A stretch of 37,472 nucleotides of DNA from a virus. Under the pieces are notes generated by a model. The model was not told where the DNA came from. It did no database searches and saw nothing but the letters and a program-made list of their open reading frames with translations. The stretch spans positions 1-37,472 of IMG/VR virus record IMGVR_UViG_3300042907_000250. The stretch is one strand, 5' to 3'. Positions 31,773 to 37,440 of this stretch are shown here, piece after piece; the stretch's first letter is position 1; each line of letters begins with the position of its first letter. A program made the translations under genes and the position numbers.

Positions 31773-33307
31773 GCATTCTGCCCACCAGTCCGGTTATTCA
31801 ACGGACGCTGATTACGGGTTGAGTTTGGGCCACCTGGGCCATCCGTCGCAGACCCAACAGGATTTTCCGACTGGGCAGCAGCGGGTTTCACATTCAAATC
31901 CCTCAAGTACAAGTTGAGTGGATCGGTATCGTCCCAATGTTGTTTCCATTCAAGAACTTCCGACTGATCGACACCAGGAATGCGATTCCAGGCAGCCCAC
32001 TTCGGAACACCAAGCTGATCAACAATCTTGCCCCAGGCATCAGCGAACTGACTCAAGGAACGCACCTCAACGTCCTGCCAATGAACACGGGCAGAGAAAT
32101 CGTTAGCGTCCTCCTCGCGCCCCTCAATGTGAGCGGCCAGCCGCAAAGCCTGCGCGTGACTGCGGCCCATAATTGTCTGCTTCTCGAAAAGACGTTGGTA
32201 CGTCTGCCTTCTCGCGCCATCAAGAGCATCGGCAGCAACATTCACAATCTGGCCCAACAGGTTAGGCGGCAACTGTGTCACAGCGGCGAACGCCTCAAGG
32301 TCAGCCTTGTACGCCTCAATGAAACCCTGCATAGAAGTCTCATCAAGAGTGCCGAACTTCGCCTGCACATCAGAAGCAATCAGAATGTCCTCGTTGGCAA
32401 GTCGAATCTTGTCCATCGAAACCTCCTCTTCCGTATCCGGCTGCTCCAGGCCAGTGGCCCACCGAATCTTGAAAGAGTTGAAGTGCTGCACCAGAAGTCG
32501 ATCAAAAGCCGTCTTATCGATACGAGCCGCAAGATCAATGATCGGCTCAACGTCACCCCAAGTGCGGCCCTCAAGATCAATCTGATTCACATACCGCACA
32601 AAGGGATTCACGCCGTAATCGTGAACCTTCGTCTCAACTACCTTGAACTTTGAGCCATCAAACTGAAGGACATGATACCCCTCACCGTTGAACCACCAAC
32701 GCCAACTTCCATCAAATCGCTTCTCTAGCACATACTCTGGGTACTCATCACCGAAAGGATCGGCGTACAAAGCGAAACAACGGGCCGGTGACACGCCGCG
32801 CATAACCGCCATGCTTTCGCCGCCGCTGTCAGCCGGGATCACCTGACCGCTGTCCGCATCCCGAATGCCCCGCGTCACACGAAGATACGAATACCCGGCA
32901 ATCATCGTCGTCCGATTGATCGACAACTGCTGAGACTTCATATCGTTGAATTCCCAAGTCTTCCAAGCCTCTTGGTTCTCCATGTCGCCCTCACGGCGAT
33001 AACCATCAACAACCATCTGCTGCGCGAACGTAGAAACCATCAAAGGAATCCACGGCGTGCGAGCAAGACGCTGAAGCAGATGCCGCTCAGTGTTGCGCTT
33101 CAACGGCTTAACCTCTGGCTGCTTGCCGTTACCCCAAGACTCAAGCTTCCGAATCCGGTGCCGCTCATGGTCAAATGCCGGGAACAACTCAGTTCCCAAA
33201 TACTTGATCAAGGTCTTCGTATTCGCGCCATCGGAAGGAAAGGCCACCCTCTCGCGAGGCCCGTCCACCCAAATGTCGTCGGAGTAGTAATTGTGGTAAT
33301 TCACCAT
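31769..33307 (-). CDS. portal protein, SPP1 Gp6-like (512 aa)
   Basis: The product includes ERHLLQRLARTPWIPLMVST, FAQQMVVDGYRREGDMENQE, GVSPARCFALYADPFGDEYP, the RTWGDVEPIIDLAARIDKTA helix and TQLPPNLLGQIVNVAADALD, all typical of SPP1-type portals. The last 60 residues are disordered and Asn/Pro-rich. Portal dodecamers form the DNA channel and nucleate the head. ATG at 33307 overlaps the terminase stop by seven bases, and the MuF-like gene follows at an ATGA overlap. Confidence 0.94.
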   Translation of the reverse strand: MVNYHNYYSDDIWVDGPRERVAFPSDGANTKTLIKYLGTELFPAFDHERHRIRKLESWGNGKQPEVKPLKRNTERHLLQRLARTPWIPLMVSTFAQQMVVDGYRREGDMENQEAWKTWEFNDMKSQQLSINRTTMIAGYSYLRVTRGIRDADSGQVIPADSGGESMAVMRGVSPARCFALYADPFGDEYPEYVLEKRFDGSWRWWFNGEGYHVLQFDGSKFKVVETKVHDYGVNPFVRYVNQIDLEGRTWGDVEPIIDLAARIDKTAFDRLLVQHFNSFKIRWATGLEQPDTEEEVSMDKIRLANEDILIASDVQAKFGTLDETSMQGFIEAYKADLEAFAAVTQLPPNLLGQIVNVAADALDGARRQTYQRLFEKQTIMGRSHAQALRLAAHIEGREEDANDFSARVHWQDVEVRSLSQFADAWGKIVDQLGVPKWAAWNRIPGVDQSEVLEWKQHWDDTDPLNLYLRDLNVKPAAAQSENPVGSATDGPGGPNSTRNQRPLNNRTGGQNA

Positions 33308-34860
33308 ATTCGGCCACCTCTTGGCTTGCCTTCGTAGGGCTTACGCTCTGTCAGCGCATCGGCCCTCTTCATGTTCAGACCCCACAAGGCATAAGTGACA
33401 GCGCAAACGCCCGTAATATCCACAGTCGGATCAACCCGGCTCCAACCCCAACCGTTGTACTCATCAGTACCGACCTTCCCGCCCACCATGTACTGCCGCG
33501 CACCCGAAAGTCCTTGCGCCAGAGACTTATCCCCCAAATGAACCAAGGAACCGTCATACACAGAATCAAAGAAGAAACCAGTACTCCCCATGATCTCCCT
33601 CGTACCAAAAGGGATCACCTTAGCGCCCAAAGCCTCAAGCTCAGGAATCAAAGCACCGGCACGGGCACCCGACTGCACACACACAGCAAGCGGAACAGGA
33701 TTATCCGTTGCCCCGTAAAGCTTTTCAATCACATCAACACACCAGGAGATGCCGCCACCATCCTGAACAATCTCAACCTGCTTCAAGCCATCAGCCGTAT
33801 AACCAGCCAAAGCTATTGTCGCACAAGACCTATCAGGTGCCGCATCAATCGCAACCACATACTGCGAAGTGATCTCCGACATCGGCTGGCCCTTGCACTC
33901 ATCGTGCGACAAGCCGCCACAGCGACACAAAGAACGCCAAGTGTCGGCATCTATCGGAGAATTAACGTGAGTATCAGCCCAAAGACCAAGGCGCTCCCGC
34001 GCAAAATCCTTGTCGGACAAAGACCGGCGTTCAAGTTCGATGAACTCCTCATTCAGGCGAATCCCTAACGCGGGGTTAGCTTTATACCACTGCTCGCGAT
34101 CATCCAACGGACTATTCGGATCAGCGCACCACTCAAACAGTGCGATCCCCGGCTCATGCGACAGGCCGCGATCACGAACCTGCAAAAGCACATCGGAGTC
34201 CTCATGCCCAGTCGAAGACGCATACCAAATCTGCGGATTCGGACGTGCGCTCAAAGCCGGGATCAACGCGCCAATCATCTCTGGCGCAAGGGAATACGCC
34301 TCGTCAAGAACAACCAAATCTCCAGAGAAGCCCCGGCCAGGATCGCGGCCACGGGCCATATAAAGCAGACGCGCCCCATTCTTAAGCTCAATCCCAACAT
34401 TGTTGTTACCGCTCCGCTTCTTGTGAACCATCTTGTCCAAGTCGGGGCAAGACTCAATCAACCGGCACATACGCAGATAGGACTCATGTGCAGTCGGAAA
34501 CAACTGTGCGCTATGGATAATCAGCTTCTCGCCAAGCAAGAACAGACCAACAAGCTCCCTAGCCTCAACGATGACCGTCTTCCCCTGCTGGCGCGGCACC
34601 AAGAGCGCAACCTCTTTGGCGCTCCACTTGTTATTAACCAGGCCAAGCGACTCCAGAAGGCAAAACCGTTGCCACTCATCAAGATTCACGCCAACAGCAT
34701 CAAGAAACGCTATGCACTTAGCGCCAACCGTGTGGTTGTAGTCGGGAATCCAACAGTTAGAAGGAACCTGACTGCCAATGCGTTCACCCTCAACAACATT
34801 GACGCGATCTTCACCAAGCTTGAACGGCTTGCGAGTCGCCGGAACTGTGCCAGCAGGCAT
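33301..34860 (-). CDS. terminase large subunit (519 aa)
   Basis: Motor and nuclease of DNA packaging. The ATPase part has a Walker A-like VALLVPRQQGKT near residue 90, a Walker B LVVLDEAYSLAPE near 185 and the coupling motif region YASSTGHEDSD. The C-terminal nuclease (RNase H fold) shows VVAIDAAPDRSCATIALAGY with a metal-binding Asp. ATG at 34860 is chosen because GAGG lies six bases upstream; a TTG at 34872 is an alternative. The gene follows the small subunit closely and overlaps the portal start. Confidence 0.95.
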   Translation of the reverse strand: MPAGTVPATRKPFKLGEDRVNVVEGERIGSQVPSNCWIPDYNHTVGAKCIAFLDAVGVNLDEWQRFCLLESLGLVNNKWSAKEVALLVPRQQGKTVIVEARELVGLFLLGEKLIIHSAQLFPTAHESYLRMCRLIESCPDLDKMVHKKRSGNNNVGIELKNGARLLYMARGRDPGRGFSGDLVVLDEAYSLAPEMIGALIPALSARPNPQIWYASSTGHEDSDVLLQVRDRGLSHEPGIALFEWCADPNSPLDDREQWYKANPALGIRLNEEFIELERRSLSDKDFARERLGLWADTHVNSPIDADTWRSLCRCGGLSHDECKGQPMSEITSQYVVAIDAAPDRSCATIALAGYTADGLKQVEIVQDGGGISWCVDVIEKLYGATDNPVPLAVCVQSGARAGALIPELEALGAKVIPFGTREIMGSTGFFFDSVYDGSLVHLGDKSLAQGLSGARQYMVGGKVGTDEYNGWGWSRVDPTVDITGVCAVTYALWGLNMKRADALTERKPYEGKPRGGRIW

Positions 34861-34868
34861 AACCGTCC

Positions 34869-35243
34869 TCAACCGTCCAAGCTAAACGCCGCCATCAACT
34901 TTTCGATAGCGGAATCCTCGCCAGTAGCCTCATCAACTTTCCCAAGCTTGAGGTGAGCGATCATGGTACGCAACGCAATTCGCTGCTGACGTACCTCGCC
35001 AAGAAGGGGATTGACGATAATCTGAACCCTCGCAGCGCCATCGGCCAAAACCTCAGCCTCTTCGGCCAGCCGAACCCACTCCTGCGAATTCGACCTCAGC
35101 GCCGCAGAAAGCCTCTCAATGATGTCAGCGGTACGACACGCCTCACCCAACAGCAAAAGACCGGCAGCGTCGAAATCAGATACCTCTAAAACGGCATCCC
35201 AAAGCTCCCGGCCCCGGTGATCAAGCCCGTTAGGTGGCTGCAT
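34869..35243 (-). CDS. terminase small subunit, P27-like (124 aa)
   Basis: MQPPNGLDHRGRELWDAVLE, then DFDAAGLLLLGEACRTADII, with a final NPLLGEVRQQRIALRTMIAH helix, matches P27-type small terminases ('G..LW..V....D.......LL..AC...D...RL'). The protein recognises the packaging site and loads the large subunit. ATG at 35243 is selected by similarity. ATG at 35273 has a better ribosome site (GAGAAGG) but would add a low-complexity ICIGIGIGI stretch. It overlaps the 85-residue gene by 14 bases. Confidence 0.85.
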   Translation of the reverse strand: MQPPNGLDHRGRELWDAVLEVSDFDAAGLLLLGEACRTADIIERLSAALRSNSQEWVRLAEEAEVLADGAARVQIIVNPLLGEVRQQRIALRTMIAHLKLGKVDEATGEDSAIEKLMAAFSLDG

Positions 35244-35487
35244 GATTCCTATACCAATCCCAATGCATATCATGCGCCTTCTCAAGCAGCGCAACAGTAT
35301 TCAAGAGCCGCCGGTTCACACCAGTCAGCCCAAGCTCCTCGCGGCGCGACTCATCAAGCGCCAACCTCGCGTACAACGAAGACAACTCAGCAACATCCCA
35401 CCGGATCATCTCTTTGATCTCATCAAGCGAAAGCTTATTGCCCCGAAAGTCAACGGGCACTTCATCTTTGGCGGCAGCAGCCATCAT
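35230..35487 (-). CDS. first gene of the late operon, small helical protein (85 aa)
   Basis: Tandem ATGs at 35487 and 35484 follow AGAGGGG by six bases. The open frame reaches 35532, but that part contains the promoter -10 element. The product is helical and charged (LSLDEIKEMIRWDVAELSSL, YARLALDESRREELGLTG, LLNTVALLEKAHDMHWDW). No family is firmly recognised. Position before the small terminase suggests a packaging accessory, but an HNH nuclease can be excluded because no such motif is present. Confidence 0.78.
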   Translation of the reverse strand: MMAAAAKDEVPVDFRGNKLSLDEIKEMIRWDVAELSSLYARLALDESRREELGLTGVNRRLLNTVALLEKAHDMHWDWYRNHAAT

Positions 35488-35604: not shown

Positions 35605-35811
35605 ATGCCAAGGGAGCTAAAGAAAAAGCACCAAAACCGGGTCTGGAAAGACTCCTGCGGAGACATCTGGTTCTTCGAAGAAGCGAGCCTACGCTGGATG
35701 TGCCTACTCGCATCCCTAGACGGCTACTACGTCGAAAACTGGATCGCACCAACGGAATTCGACGGCCCGTACAAAGAGATCGCCCGAAACAGGGTCTACG
35801 GACTGCCATGA
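35605..35811 (+). CDS. hypothetical small protein (68 aa), first of rightward block
   Basis: GAGGAG four bases before ATG gives a strong start. The sequence MPRELKKKHQNRVWKDSCGD continues IWFFEEASLRWMCLLASLDG and ends in NRVYGLP. It is basic at the start, then aromatic-rich with Trp residues and two Cys. It may be a small single-domain beta protein. No family is recognised. Its stop overlaps the next ATG as ATGA, so the block is translationally coupled. Confidence 0.75.
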   Translation: MPRELKKKHQNRVWKDSCGDIWFFEEASLRWMCLLASLDGYYVENWIAPTEFDGPYKEIARNRVYGLP

Positions 35812-36035
35812 ACTGGCACAAAACCGACGAACACCAAAAAGTGTTCAGCAGATACCAAGCGCACGATGACCAGAAACCGGGCCACACATATGTCATCCAG
35901 AAAAAGCGCACCGGATCATCCGGCTGGCGGCTCGCGTACCGCACAACCGAAGATCAGCCACTCCGAATCATCTACCTCGCAACAACATTGGCCGAATGCA
36001 AAGCCTACGCAGAACACTACCGGAAGGCCCAATGA
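35808..36035 (+). CDS. hypothetical small protein (75 aa)
   Basis: Starts MNWHKTDEHQKVFSRYQAHD, then GHTYVIQKKRTGSSGWRLAY and IIYLATTLAECKAYAEHYRK. A strand-strand-helix arrangement is likely, with a final helix rich in Ala and charged residues. The ATG shares four bases with the previous stop. The frame is open far upstream, but ATGA coupling selects this start. Function unknown. The gene is part of the divergent accessory block next to the packaging genes. Confidence 0.72.
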   Translation: MNWHKTDEHQKVFSRYQAHDDQKPGHTYVIQKKRTGSSGWRLAYRTTEDQPLRIIYLATTLAECKAYAEHYRKAQ

Positions 36036-36205
36036 CATCACACCTGGAATGTGGCTGCCCCACATACCTTTACAAGCACGATTCCTGGTGCCCAGCCACG
36101 CCAACCTACATGCAACTAGTGAAGGAAAACGGCAGCGACCCATCAAACCTCTGGGAATTCATCGTCTTCGGACTAGGGGCGCTACCCGACTGGGACAAAA
36201 TATGA
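36032..36205 (+). CDS. small Cys-containing protein (57 aa)
   Basis: MTSHLECGCPTYLYKHDSWC is followed by PATPTYMQLVKENGSDPSNL and a hydrophobic end WEFIVFGLGALPDWDKI. Cys at residues 7, 9 and 20 with His at 4 and 16 could form a small metal site. ATGA overlaps tie it to both neighbours. Family unknown. Confidence 0.7.
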   Translation: MTSHLECGCPTYLYKHDSWCPATPTYMQLVKENGSDPSNLWEFIVFGLGALPDWDKI

Positions 36206-36390
36206 TCTACATCATCTGCGCCGCATGCAAAAAACCGCTCGCACTCGTTGAAGACGACGATGAGTACATCCAAAAAGCAGAAGTTGCAGCACTAGCCCAC
36301 TCCGAAGTGTGCGAATCCTCCGACGAAGACTACCGACAAGCCGTGTACGACATCAGATTTCGACAACTAACAAAGGATATCGATCTGTGA
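36202..36390 (+). CDS. small acidic protein with CAAC pair (62 aa)
   Basis: MIYIICAACKKPLALVEDDD carries a CxxC pair at residues 6 and 9. A later His33...Cys37 (ALAHSEVCESSDED) could complete a zinc site, so a zinc-ribbon or treble-clef-like fold is possible. The rest is acidic (EDDDEYIQKAEV). ATGA overlap with the gene before, GTGA overlap with the gene after. No known family assigned. A protein- or RNA-binding adaptor is conceivable. Confidence 0.7.
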   Translation: MIYIICAACKKPLALVEDDDEYIQKAEVAALAHSEVCESSDEDYRQAVYDIRFRQLTKDIDL

Positions 36391-36548
36391 GCTACATCGA
36401 AGAAGCCAAAGCCGTAGTACGCGACATCGGAAACGATGACCTCGCCATCTACGACGATCAACCAGCAGTCCTCTGGGGAATCCTCAACGCCCTCATCGGA
36501 ATTCACGAACAACTCAACAACGGCTTAGTAGCGGAAGTCTTCGAATGA
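36387..36548 (+). CDS. hypothetical small acidic protein (53 aa), GTG start
   Basis: GTG at 36387 overlaps the previous stop (GTGA), with AAAGGA nine bases upstream. The product MSYIEEAKAVVRDIGNDDLA, IYDDQPAVLWGILNALIGIH, EQLNNGLVAEVFE is acidic and mostly helical, with an amphipathic or partly buried helix near residues 27-40. No family recognised. ATGA coupling to the next gene. Confidence 0.68.
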   Translation: MSYIEEAKAVVRDIGNDDLAIYDDQPAVLWGILNALIGIHEQLNNGLVAEVFE

Positions 36549-36832
36549 GTGACATCCAAGCGGCCTTCCGCTCGCACCAGTACTGGCTCACCGGAGCCGA
36601 CTACATCTGCTCATGCGGATGGAAAGGCCACAACCCGCCCAAGCACGTCATCGAAGAAGTTCTTCTCTACCAAGGACTCCGGTCAGAATGGCCGCACGCC
36701 AAGCACCGCAAGTCCGAACTCACCGAAGCAATGACCCACCCACTGAGCGAGCCTCGAAAGAACCGGCGCATCACCGTAAGCGTTGCCGGGTTCCGCGACA
36801 AGCTCGCCAAACTCCTAGGCGCATACACCTAA
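36545..36832 (+). CDS. small protein with CSCGWKG zinc-ribbon-like motif (95 aa)
   Basis: MSDIQAAFRSHQYWLTGADY is followed by ICSCGWKGHNPPKHVIEEVL and a basic C-terminal half (HAKHRKSELTEAMTHPLSEP, RKNRRITVSVAGFRDKLAKL). The CxCGWxG motif with two nearby His residues resembles short zinc-binding modules common in phage accessory proteins. A basic end suggests nucleic acid contact. It is coupled on both sides (ATGA and TAATG). Confidence 0.72.
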   Translation: MSDIQAAFRSHQYWLTGADYICSCGWKGHNPPKHVIEEVLLYQGLRSEWPHAKHRKSELTEAMTHPLSEPRKNRRITVSVAGFRDKLAKLLGAYT

Positions 36833-37011
36833 TGAAAACCATTGCAACACTTCTCATCACAGCCCTCGCCCTAACCGGCTGCGCCCCATCCGATCAGCTT
36901 GACCAGATCATGGGCCGCACCCAAGGCACCCCAACAACGGAACCGCGAAAGCTGGACTGCGACTTAATCTTTCCCGCCCCAACAGATCGATCCAAGGAGG
37001 AGGTGAACTAA
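36832..37011 (+). CDS. small lipoprotein (59 aa)
   Basis: A signal peptide MKTIATLLITALALTGC ends in the lipobox LTGC, with the lipid-modified Cys at residue 17. The mature part is about 43 residues (APSDQLDQIMGRTQG, then TTEPRKLDCDLIFPAPTDRS). TAATG overlap with the gene before. It would be anchored outside the cytoplasmic membrane. Small phage lipoproteins include superinfection-exclusion factors (as in T5 and TP-J34), but no sequence match is claimed. Alternative: a lysis-related o-spanin-like protein, less likely in a host without an outer membrane. Confidence 0.8.
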   Translation: MKTIATLLITALALTGCAPSDQLDQIMGRTQGTPTTEPRKLDCDLIFPAPTDRSKEEVN

Positions 37012-37015
37012 CGCA

Positions 37016-37102
37016 ATGGATTACAAGAAGCCAGCGCCCAAGAAGCCGAAGAAAGCAACCGCAACCCCCAAGAAGGGAATGATGACACCCAAAAAGAAGT
37101 AG
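37016..37102 (+). CDS. Lys/Pro-rich basic micropeptide (28 aa)
   Basis: ATG at 37016 lies about ten bases after the strong site AAGGAGGAGG inside the end of the lipoprotein gene. The product is MDYKKPAPKKPKKATATPKK followed by GMMTPKKK, with 12 Lys and 5 Pro, resembling a histone-H1-tail-like or nucleic-acid-binding peptide. The stop is eight bases before the tmRNA-like RNA. The Shine-Dalgarno sequence and reading-frame placement support translation, but the short length leaves doubt. Confidence 0.62.
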   Translation: MDYKKPAPKKPKKATATPKKGMMTPKKK

Positions 37103-37110
37103 GGGTGGCC

Positions 37111-37190
37111 GGGGCAGGTAACGGTTTCGACAATCCGAAAGTCCGCACGTCGGAACGGATTGGACTAGGGTTCGACTCCCTACTGCTCCA
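37111..37190 (+). ncRNA. tmRNA-like RNA reduced to the tRNA-like domain
   Basis: GGGGCAG (37111-37117) pairs with CTGCTCC (37183-37189) as a 7-bp acceptor stem whose third pair is G:U, the alanine identity element, followed by A73. AACGGTTTCGAC (37120-37131) is the 5' segment of actinobacterial tmRNAs. TAGGG/CCCTA with loop TTCGACT (37166-37182) is a perfect T-arm preceded by GGAC, as in tmRNA. The centre is only AATCCG/CGGATT (37132-37137 with 37156-37161) enclosing TCCG/CGGA. No tag frame, resume codon or pseudoknots fit. CCA is not encoded (ACAA follows). Confidence 0.8.
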
Positions 37191-37319: not shown

Positions 37320-37440
37320 TCAACCCTGAGCGCCGCTGTCGGCACCGGCCTGCCCGAATGCGTTGCCATTGTTCCAGGTCAAAATAGGTTTCAGCCGAAA
37401 ATCGCTGCTAGGGGGAAAGCCGCATTCCGCTGAAGTGTCC

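Follow-up and report, generated by a model that had tools for sequence, protein, structure and literature searches.

The row of small genes beside the terminase genes of the phage sequence analysed here (the window, a 37.5-kb virus record) closes with an RNA that, judged from its sequence, is the tRNA-like domain (TLD) of tmRNA alone, carrying neither a tag frame nor pseudoknots. We suspect, with a probability of roughly 0.6, that this RNA may interfere with host trans-translation as a decoy or competitor. Its kind is already known from mycobacteriophage DS6A and two plastid sequences, and the window RNA is a further member. The breadth of its occurrence, its covariation, its retained alanine identity and its conserved position appear to be unreported in the open-access literature searched.

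The phage itself is, on sequence similarity, a mycobacteriophage relative and a relative of the Vilmaviridae. Its large terminase subunit (TerL) is 68% identical to that of Mycobacterium phage Kumao and about 64% identical to those of cluster M phages such as Bongo, and Kumao and Bongo both belong to the Vilmaviridae. Nine of ten large genes sampled in the window have structural, packaging or lysis functions, and the tenth is of unknown function. The small genes diverge from the two terminase subunit genes, both on the minus strand next door, as the initial annotation had described. In Kumao (genes 1-10) and Bongo (genes 1-11), too, small genes run leftward in a row that diverges from terminase; they are hypothetical except for Lsr2-like proteins and, in Kumao, ThyX, and a homologue of ORF 2 occupies the same position. 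However, no TLD-only RNA was seen in the left arms of these two phages, and the row in the window is without Lsr2 and ThyX genes. A near-DNA search of phages with the region gave no match.

Table 1. Features of the small-gene block, its RNA and the adjoining terminase genes (window coordinates).
Feature	Position	Strand	Basis or remark
Terminase large subunit	33301-34872	-	Adjoins small subunit gene
Terminase small subunit	34869-35294	-	Adjoins plus-strand small-ORF block
ORF 1, 68 aa	35605..35811	+	33-aa match in L145 only, besides identical contig
ORF 2, 75 aa, phrog_14568 family	35808..36035	+	PHROG match 6e-16; homologues in Kumao and cluster M
ORF 3, 57 aa, Cys/His pattern ECGC	36032..36205	+	Homologues in L154 and L145
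ORF 4, 62 aa, Cys pattern CAAC	36202..36390	+	Homologue in L154
ORF 5, 53 aa, GTG start	36387..36548	+	No homologue found besides identical contig
ORF 6, 95 aa, CSCGWKG motif	36545..36832	+	No homologue found besides identical contig
ORF 7, 59 aa, small lipoprotein, LTGC lipobox	36832..37011	+	No homologue found besides identical contig
ORF 8, Lys-rich 28-aa peptide	37016..37102	+	No homologue found besides identical contig
TLD-only tmRNA-like RNA, 80 nt to discriminator A	37111..37190	+	Rfam RF00023, 58.8 bits; model R1, 74.1 bits; covariation
Acceptor stem 5' strand, GGGGCAG, G3 at 37113	37111..37117	+	Rfam alignment, R1
Linker GTAAC and tmRNA-type D-loop GGTTTCGA, without D stem	37118..37130	+	
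Short P2 stem AATCCG/CGGATT, C37131-G37162 closing, small hairpin cap	37131..37162	+	Replaces mRNA-like domain and pseudoknots
T arm, TAGGG-TTCGACT-CCCTA	37166..37182	+	Rfam alignment, covariation
Acceptor stem 3' strand, CTGCTCC, U70 at 37187; discriminator A at 37190	37183..37190	+	

A local Rfam scan assigned the RNA to tmRNA (RF00023; E 1.9e-22, above the gathering score), in an alignment that spans model positions 1 to 374 and in which about 16 nt take the place of the roughly 308 of tmRNA. Neither ARAGORN at the RNA locus nor the whole-window Rfam scan made a call. With full-length tmRNA (RF00023, and the molecules of Kumao and the host) the RNA shares the acceptor stem with G3·U70, A73, the GGTTTCGAC D-loop and the T arm. 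It differs from them in having no mRNA-like domain, resume codon, tag frame or pseudoknots; the roughly 30 nt that separate D-loop and T stem leave pseudoknots no room. The G3·U70 pair, which is the alanine identity pair for AlaRS, is formed by positions 37113 and 37187, and CCA is not encoded at the 3' end, which reads CAA. A tRNA is not indicated either, since there is no cloverleaf D stem or anticodon arm and, of the Rfam families in the clan, tmRNA matches best. Folded singly, the RNA has an unremarkable minimum free energy (z -1.7) and takes another fold; the identification therefore depends on the tmRNA model and on covariation. Thus the tmRNA-like RNA with which the initial annotation ended the block is indeed there, although the likeness is to the tRNA half alone, which that annotation did not say.

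The loops of this RNA recur widely. A search of viral contigs with a pattern made of the D- and T-loops only, the acceptor stem not being part of it, returned at least 119 stretches. Among the matches listed, 86 hits were unique, and the acceptor stem formed at least six of its seven pairs in 84, with G3·U70 in 81 and A73 in 83. Viral contigs had far fewer copies of the D-loop variant GGATTCGAC (10 stretches, against at least 119 for GGTTTCGAC). From the matches listed, 79 RNAs (78 distinct) were aligned by pattern scan and covariance model R1. In this alignment, which is fitted to the model, has D- and T-loop conservation by construction and contains sequences related to an unknown degree, 96.8% of paired cells were complementary (65.3% when shuffled), double-change cells numbered 488 against 152, and the covariation score was 0.739 against 0.134, all slid controls lying below 0.1. 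G3·U70 is kept in 77 of the 78 distinct RNAs and A73 in every one. The insert measures 17-38 nt and contains stop codons at chance level, which argues that there is no tag frame; a hidden mini-tag was ruled out by the same count. The smallest phage forms are 60-63 nt long (L008, L041, L051 and L110), their P2 capped by a short loop. Taken together, the covariation, the retention of G3·U70 and A73 and the lack of a tag signal indicate that the RNA is under selection and probably alanine-charged, rather than a decayed tmRNA or a phage attachment site (attP).

The eight tiny accessory ORFs reported by the initial annotation are present on the plus strand, and the RNA begins 8 nt past the last of them. 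Its account of their coupling also holds, in that ORFs 1-7 are chained by ATGA overlaps (at 35808, 36032, 36202 and 36545), a GTGA (36387) and a TAATG (36830-36834), and ORF 8 starts 4 nt past the stop of ORF 7; the Cys/His patterns, the lipobox and the Lys-rich peptide were all as it had given them. ORFs 2, 3 and 4 have homologues in one relative, in unchanged gene order. The differences in ORF 2 fall mostly at codon position 3 (26/24/40), and those in ORFs 3 and 4 do so less clearly. ORF 2 is conserved across the left-arm rows of Vilmaviridae. An identical contig aside, no homologues were found for ORFs 5-8 and just the 33-aa L145 match for ORF 1, so it is only the coupling that argues for the reality of these five. 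The model of ORF 2 (pLDDT 89) has five strands and one helix; fold searches with it in PDB and BFVD gave nothing at E < 0.001, and a sequence-profile search in PDB gave nothing significant. Pfam and PHROGs were uninformative for the ORFs, phrog_14568 being a family of unknown function, and PADLOC found no match to a defence family. Two candidate assignments were rejected, ORF 2 as a CofB pilin (a Pfam match below Pfam's cut-off) and ORF 7 as a member of the Cor exclusion family (E 0.21 only, over the signal peptide). No sigma-70 promoter was found by scanning, and there was no terminator call on the plus strand.

Given the row position shared by the family and the private nature of ORFs 5-8, we regard the protein genes as what their sequences indicate, an ordinary, fast-changing accessory operon of the Vilmaviridae left arm. 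The initial annotation had read the block as a non-virion accessory operon, which we retain, and as a possible host-takeover or exclusion module, which we do not extend to the protein genes. These are variable left-arm genes of Vilmaviridae relatives, and the profile searches and structure prediction that it had proposed gave nothing pointing to exclusion or takeover. Manipulation of the host by the RNA, rather than by the protein genes, is plausible.

A relative for comparison is a 67.7-kb contig (L154) whose TerL is 83% identical to that of the window. Its RNA lies at the same site: at 204-283 it directly follows the leftward row's last gene, with some 200 nt separating it from the end of the contig. 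The two RNAs are 91% identical over 81 nt, while near terminase the DNA is 74% identical and the left-arm genes cannot be aligned as DNA. Searches of this contig for a full tmRNA, for SmpB and for a tyrosine integrase (PF00589) found none. The last gene before its RNA (L154:293-880, minus strand) encodes a PE-PPE/cutinase-like hydrolase (PF08237, 1.1e-16) that is absent from the window operon. A 34-bp motif at window positions 37392-37425, with a CTGCTAGGGGGAAA core, is 85% identical to a stretch near the L154 contig end in otherwise unalignable DNA, and may mark a genome end or packaging site.

Isolated phages also carry the RNA, unannotated as such, including Streptomyces phages pSt2308, Shaeky, LuckySocke and BRock and Stenotrophomonas virus Jojan60, and GiJojo and Alone3 gave a near-full-length BLAST match. 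Copies in isolated phages are mostly in or near tRNA clusters, and the neighbours vary by phage (TerL, portal, head protease or capsid; DnaB helicase; replication initiation). Of 395 genomes from one actinobacterial class, strict filters left just 4 with a hit, so that this is mainly a phage feature. A long tmRNA was present as well in five of six MAG bins holding such a contig, although binning may mix phage and host.

Several related observations were made along the way. One viral contig has a Pistol ribozyme (L160:5916-6012, minus strand, 50.7 bits) about 2.2 kb from its TLD-only RNA. Two ARAGORN calls of long tmRNAs (L050:5905-6228, minus strand; L101:10045-10574, plus strand) have the TLD-only RNA as their 3' end and unusual tag peptides, and look false. 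Microbacterium phage Armstrong has a TLD variant, tmRNA-like but unannotated, in which the insert is longer (L179:1138-1227, plus strand; 39 bits with R1). This variant adjoins tRNAs near the genome end, and its matching 3' part is common to eight Microbacterium phage records. The viral contig of L048 has a TLD-only RNA (G012:C1:21438-21520) at most about 1.1 kb from a tyrosine integrase gene, and this copy may have an attP role.

Among the open-access papers searched, DS6A was the single phage example of a message-less tmRNA, although earlier work may have been missed. Like the DS6A molecule (tmRNA Website 11587), to which it is likened by description only, the window RNA is phage-encoded and codes for no tag, consisting of little more than a tmRNA-type acceptor stem (G3·U70 and A73 included), a D-loop and a T arm. 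Its setting is different, since it closes the accessory operon next to terminase in a relative of the Vilmaviridae, and it is one of a broad covarying set of phage RNAs. The CDS-less plastid tmRNAs of Mallomonadaceae (about 65 bp; PMC11915505), also likened by description only, are similarly tag-less and TLD-sized, but are plastid genes. The same architecture was engineered with a UUCG loop for the crystal of TLD with SmpB (PDB 2CZJ; PMC3929946). The 60-63-nt phage forms are likewise short-capped, whereas in the window RNA P2 is longer and a small hairpin is retained, and the UUCG molecule is a laboratory construct.

The TLD of tmRNA binds AlaRS, SmpB and EF-Tu, and with SmpB it mimics a tRNA in the ribosome (PMC3929946). 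According to PMC4131195 and PMC11915505, the former citing Mao 2009 for the result, a TLD-only molecule of the DS6A type strongly inhibits tmRNA in E. coli, whether or not it can be charged. Given this inhibition and this mimicry, a decoy or competitor is the simplest reading. We suspect that the RNA would be transcribed together with the tiny genes, and that RNase P would trim its 5' end out of the spacer behind ORF 8. The host would then add CCA, AlaRS could charge the RNA via G3·U70, and host SmpB and EF-Tu could bind it. With no resume codon or tag of its own, it would compete with genuine tmRNA both for stalled ribosomes and for the partners SmpB and EF-Tu. Trans-translation would be weakened or diverted during infection, with consequences for the tagging and proteolysis of truncated phage proteins and for non-stop mRNA decay. 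Transcription, processing, charging, SmpB binding and inhibition by this RNA are all steps that we infer. Some observations sit less easily with a decoy, namely that other phages hold the RNA in tRNA arrays, compatible with a supportive role in translation, and that no TLD-only RNA was seen in the contig of another relative (L145), which may be a fragment.

Because the published inhibition needs no charging, the near-perfect alanine identity suggests more than passive titration of SmpB; charging may matter in nature, and with it entry into the ribosome. These considerations lend some weight to active, tag-less rescue, in which the charged TLD with SmpB and EF-Tu would enter stalled ribosomes, accept the nascent chain, add one or more alanines and free or recycle the ribosome with no degradation tag added, from which the phage would benefit. 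Its company of tRNAs in several phages would suit such a role, as would the polyalanine synthesis without mRNA that a TLD fragment and SmpB perform in vitro (PMC3929946). We nevertheless consider this reading possible but doubtful. A tag-less rescue would have to end synthesis without the stop codon of the tag, and we know of no way to do so. Equally tentative is the wider idea that many phage lineages share convergent or mobile alanine-charged TLD-only RNAs that, beyond titrating SmpB, reprogram rescue, with Ala-TLD, SmpB and EF-Tu on stalled ribosomes leading to tag-less release or template-free alanine tailing.

Readings without a role in the ribosome fare worse. RNase P and RNase Z could cut a tRNA-like fold at the end of an operon, which would thereby set the 3' end of the mRNA, like the mascRNA of MALAT1. 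The RNA directly follows the last gene both in the window and in L154, and the plus strand has no terminator call, but neither enzyme requires G3·U70 or a tmRNA-type D-loop, and elsewhere the RNA stands in tRNA arrays, so we think this unlikely. The Rfam mascRNA model itself (RF01684) matches at 29.7 bits, below its gathering score of 42.5, and was rejected. Derivation from host ssrA, as an attP core or recombination scar, draws on the fact that ssrA is a known phage integration site (PMC10865867). Sequences resembling the 3' end of tmRNA lie beside tyrosine integrase genes in Gordonia phage BetterKatz (L178:1136-1231) and Mycobacterium phage LilSpotty (L180:1201-1229); these are probably attP cores, unlike the TLD-only RNAs. 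In the latter both TLD halves are present and the stems covary, and their sequences are unlike the full tmRNA of a Mycobacterium MAG. The search of the L154 contig covered tyrosine integrases, finding none, and the window represents just a portion of its genome, yet an attP origin is already contradicted for this phage group and is very improbable here. Least probable of all is that the RNA is what decay has left of a full phage tmRNA, of which Kumao carries one of 407 nt elsewhere in its genome. A relic would hardly remain a 91% conserved island where other left-arm DNA fails to align, be uniform in size or show compensatory changes over 78 distinct sequences.

The message-less kind of tmRNA is thus common in phages (at least 119 contigs), structurally selected with its alanine identity kept, and missed or miscalled by ARAGORN. 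Its presence in dozens of diverse phages suggests that disturbing or redirecting ribosome rescue in the host may be a common phage tactic, and the decoy reading predicts that phages would jam or reroute the trans-translation of their hosts with such an RNA.
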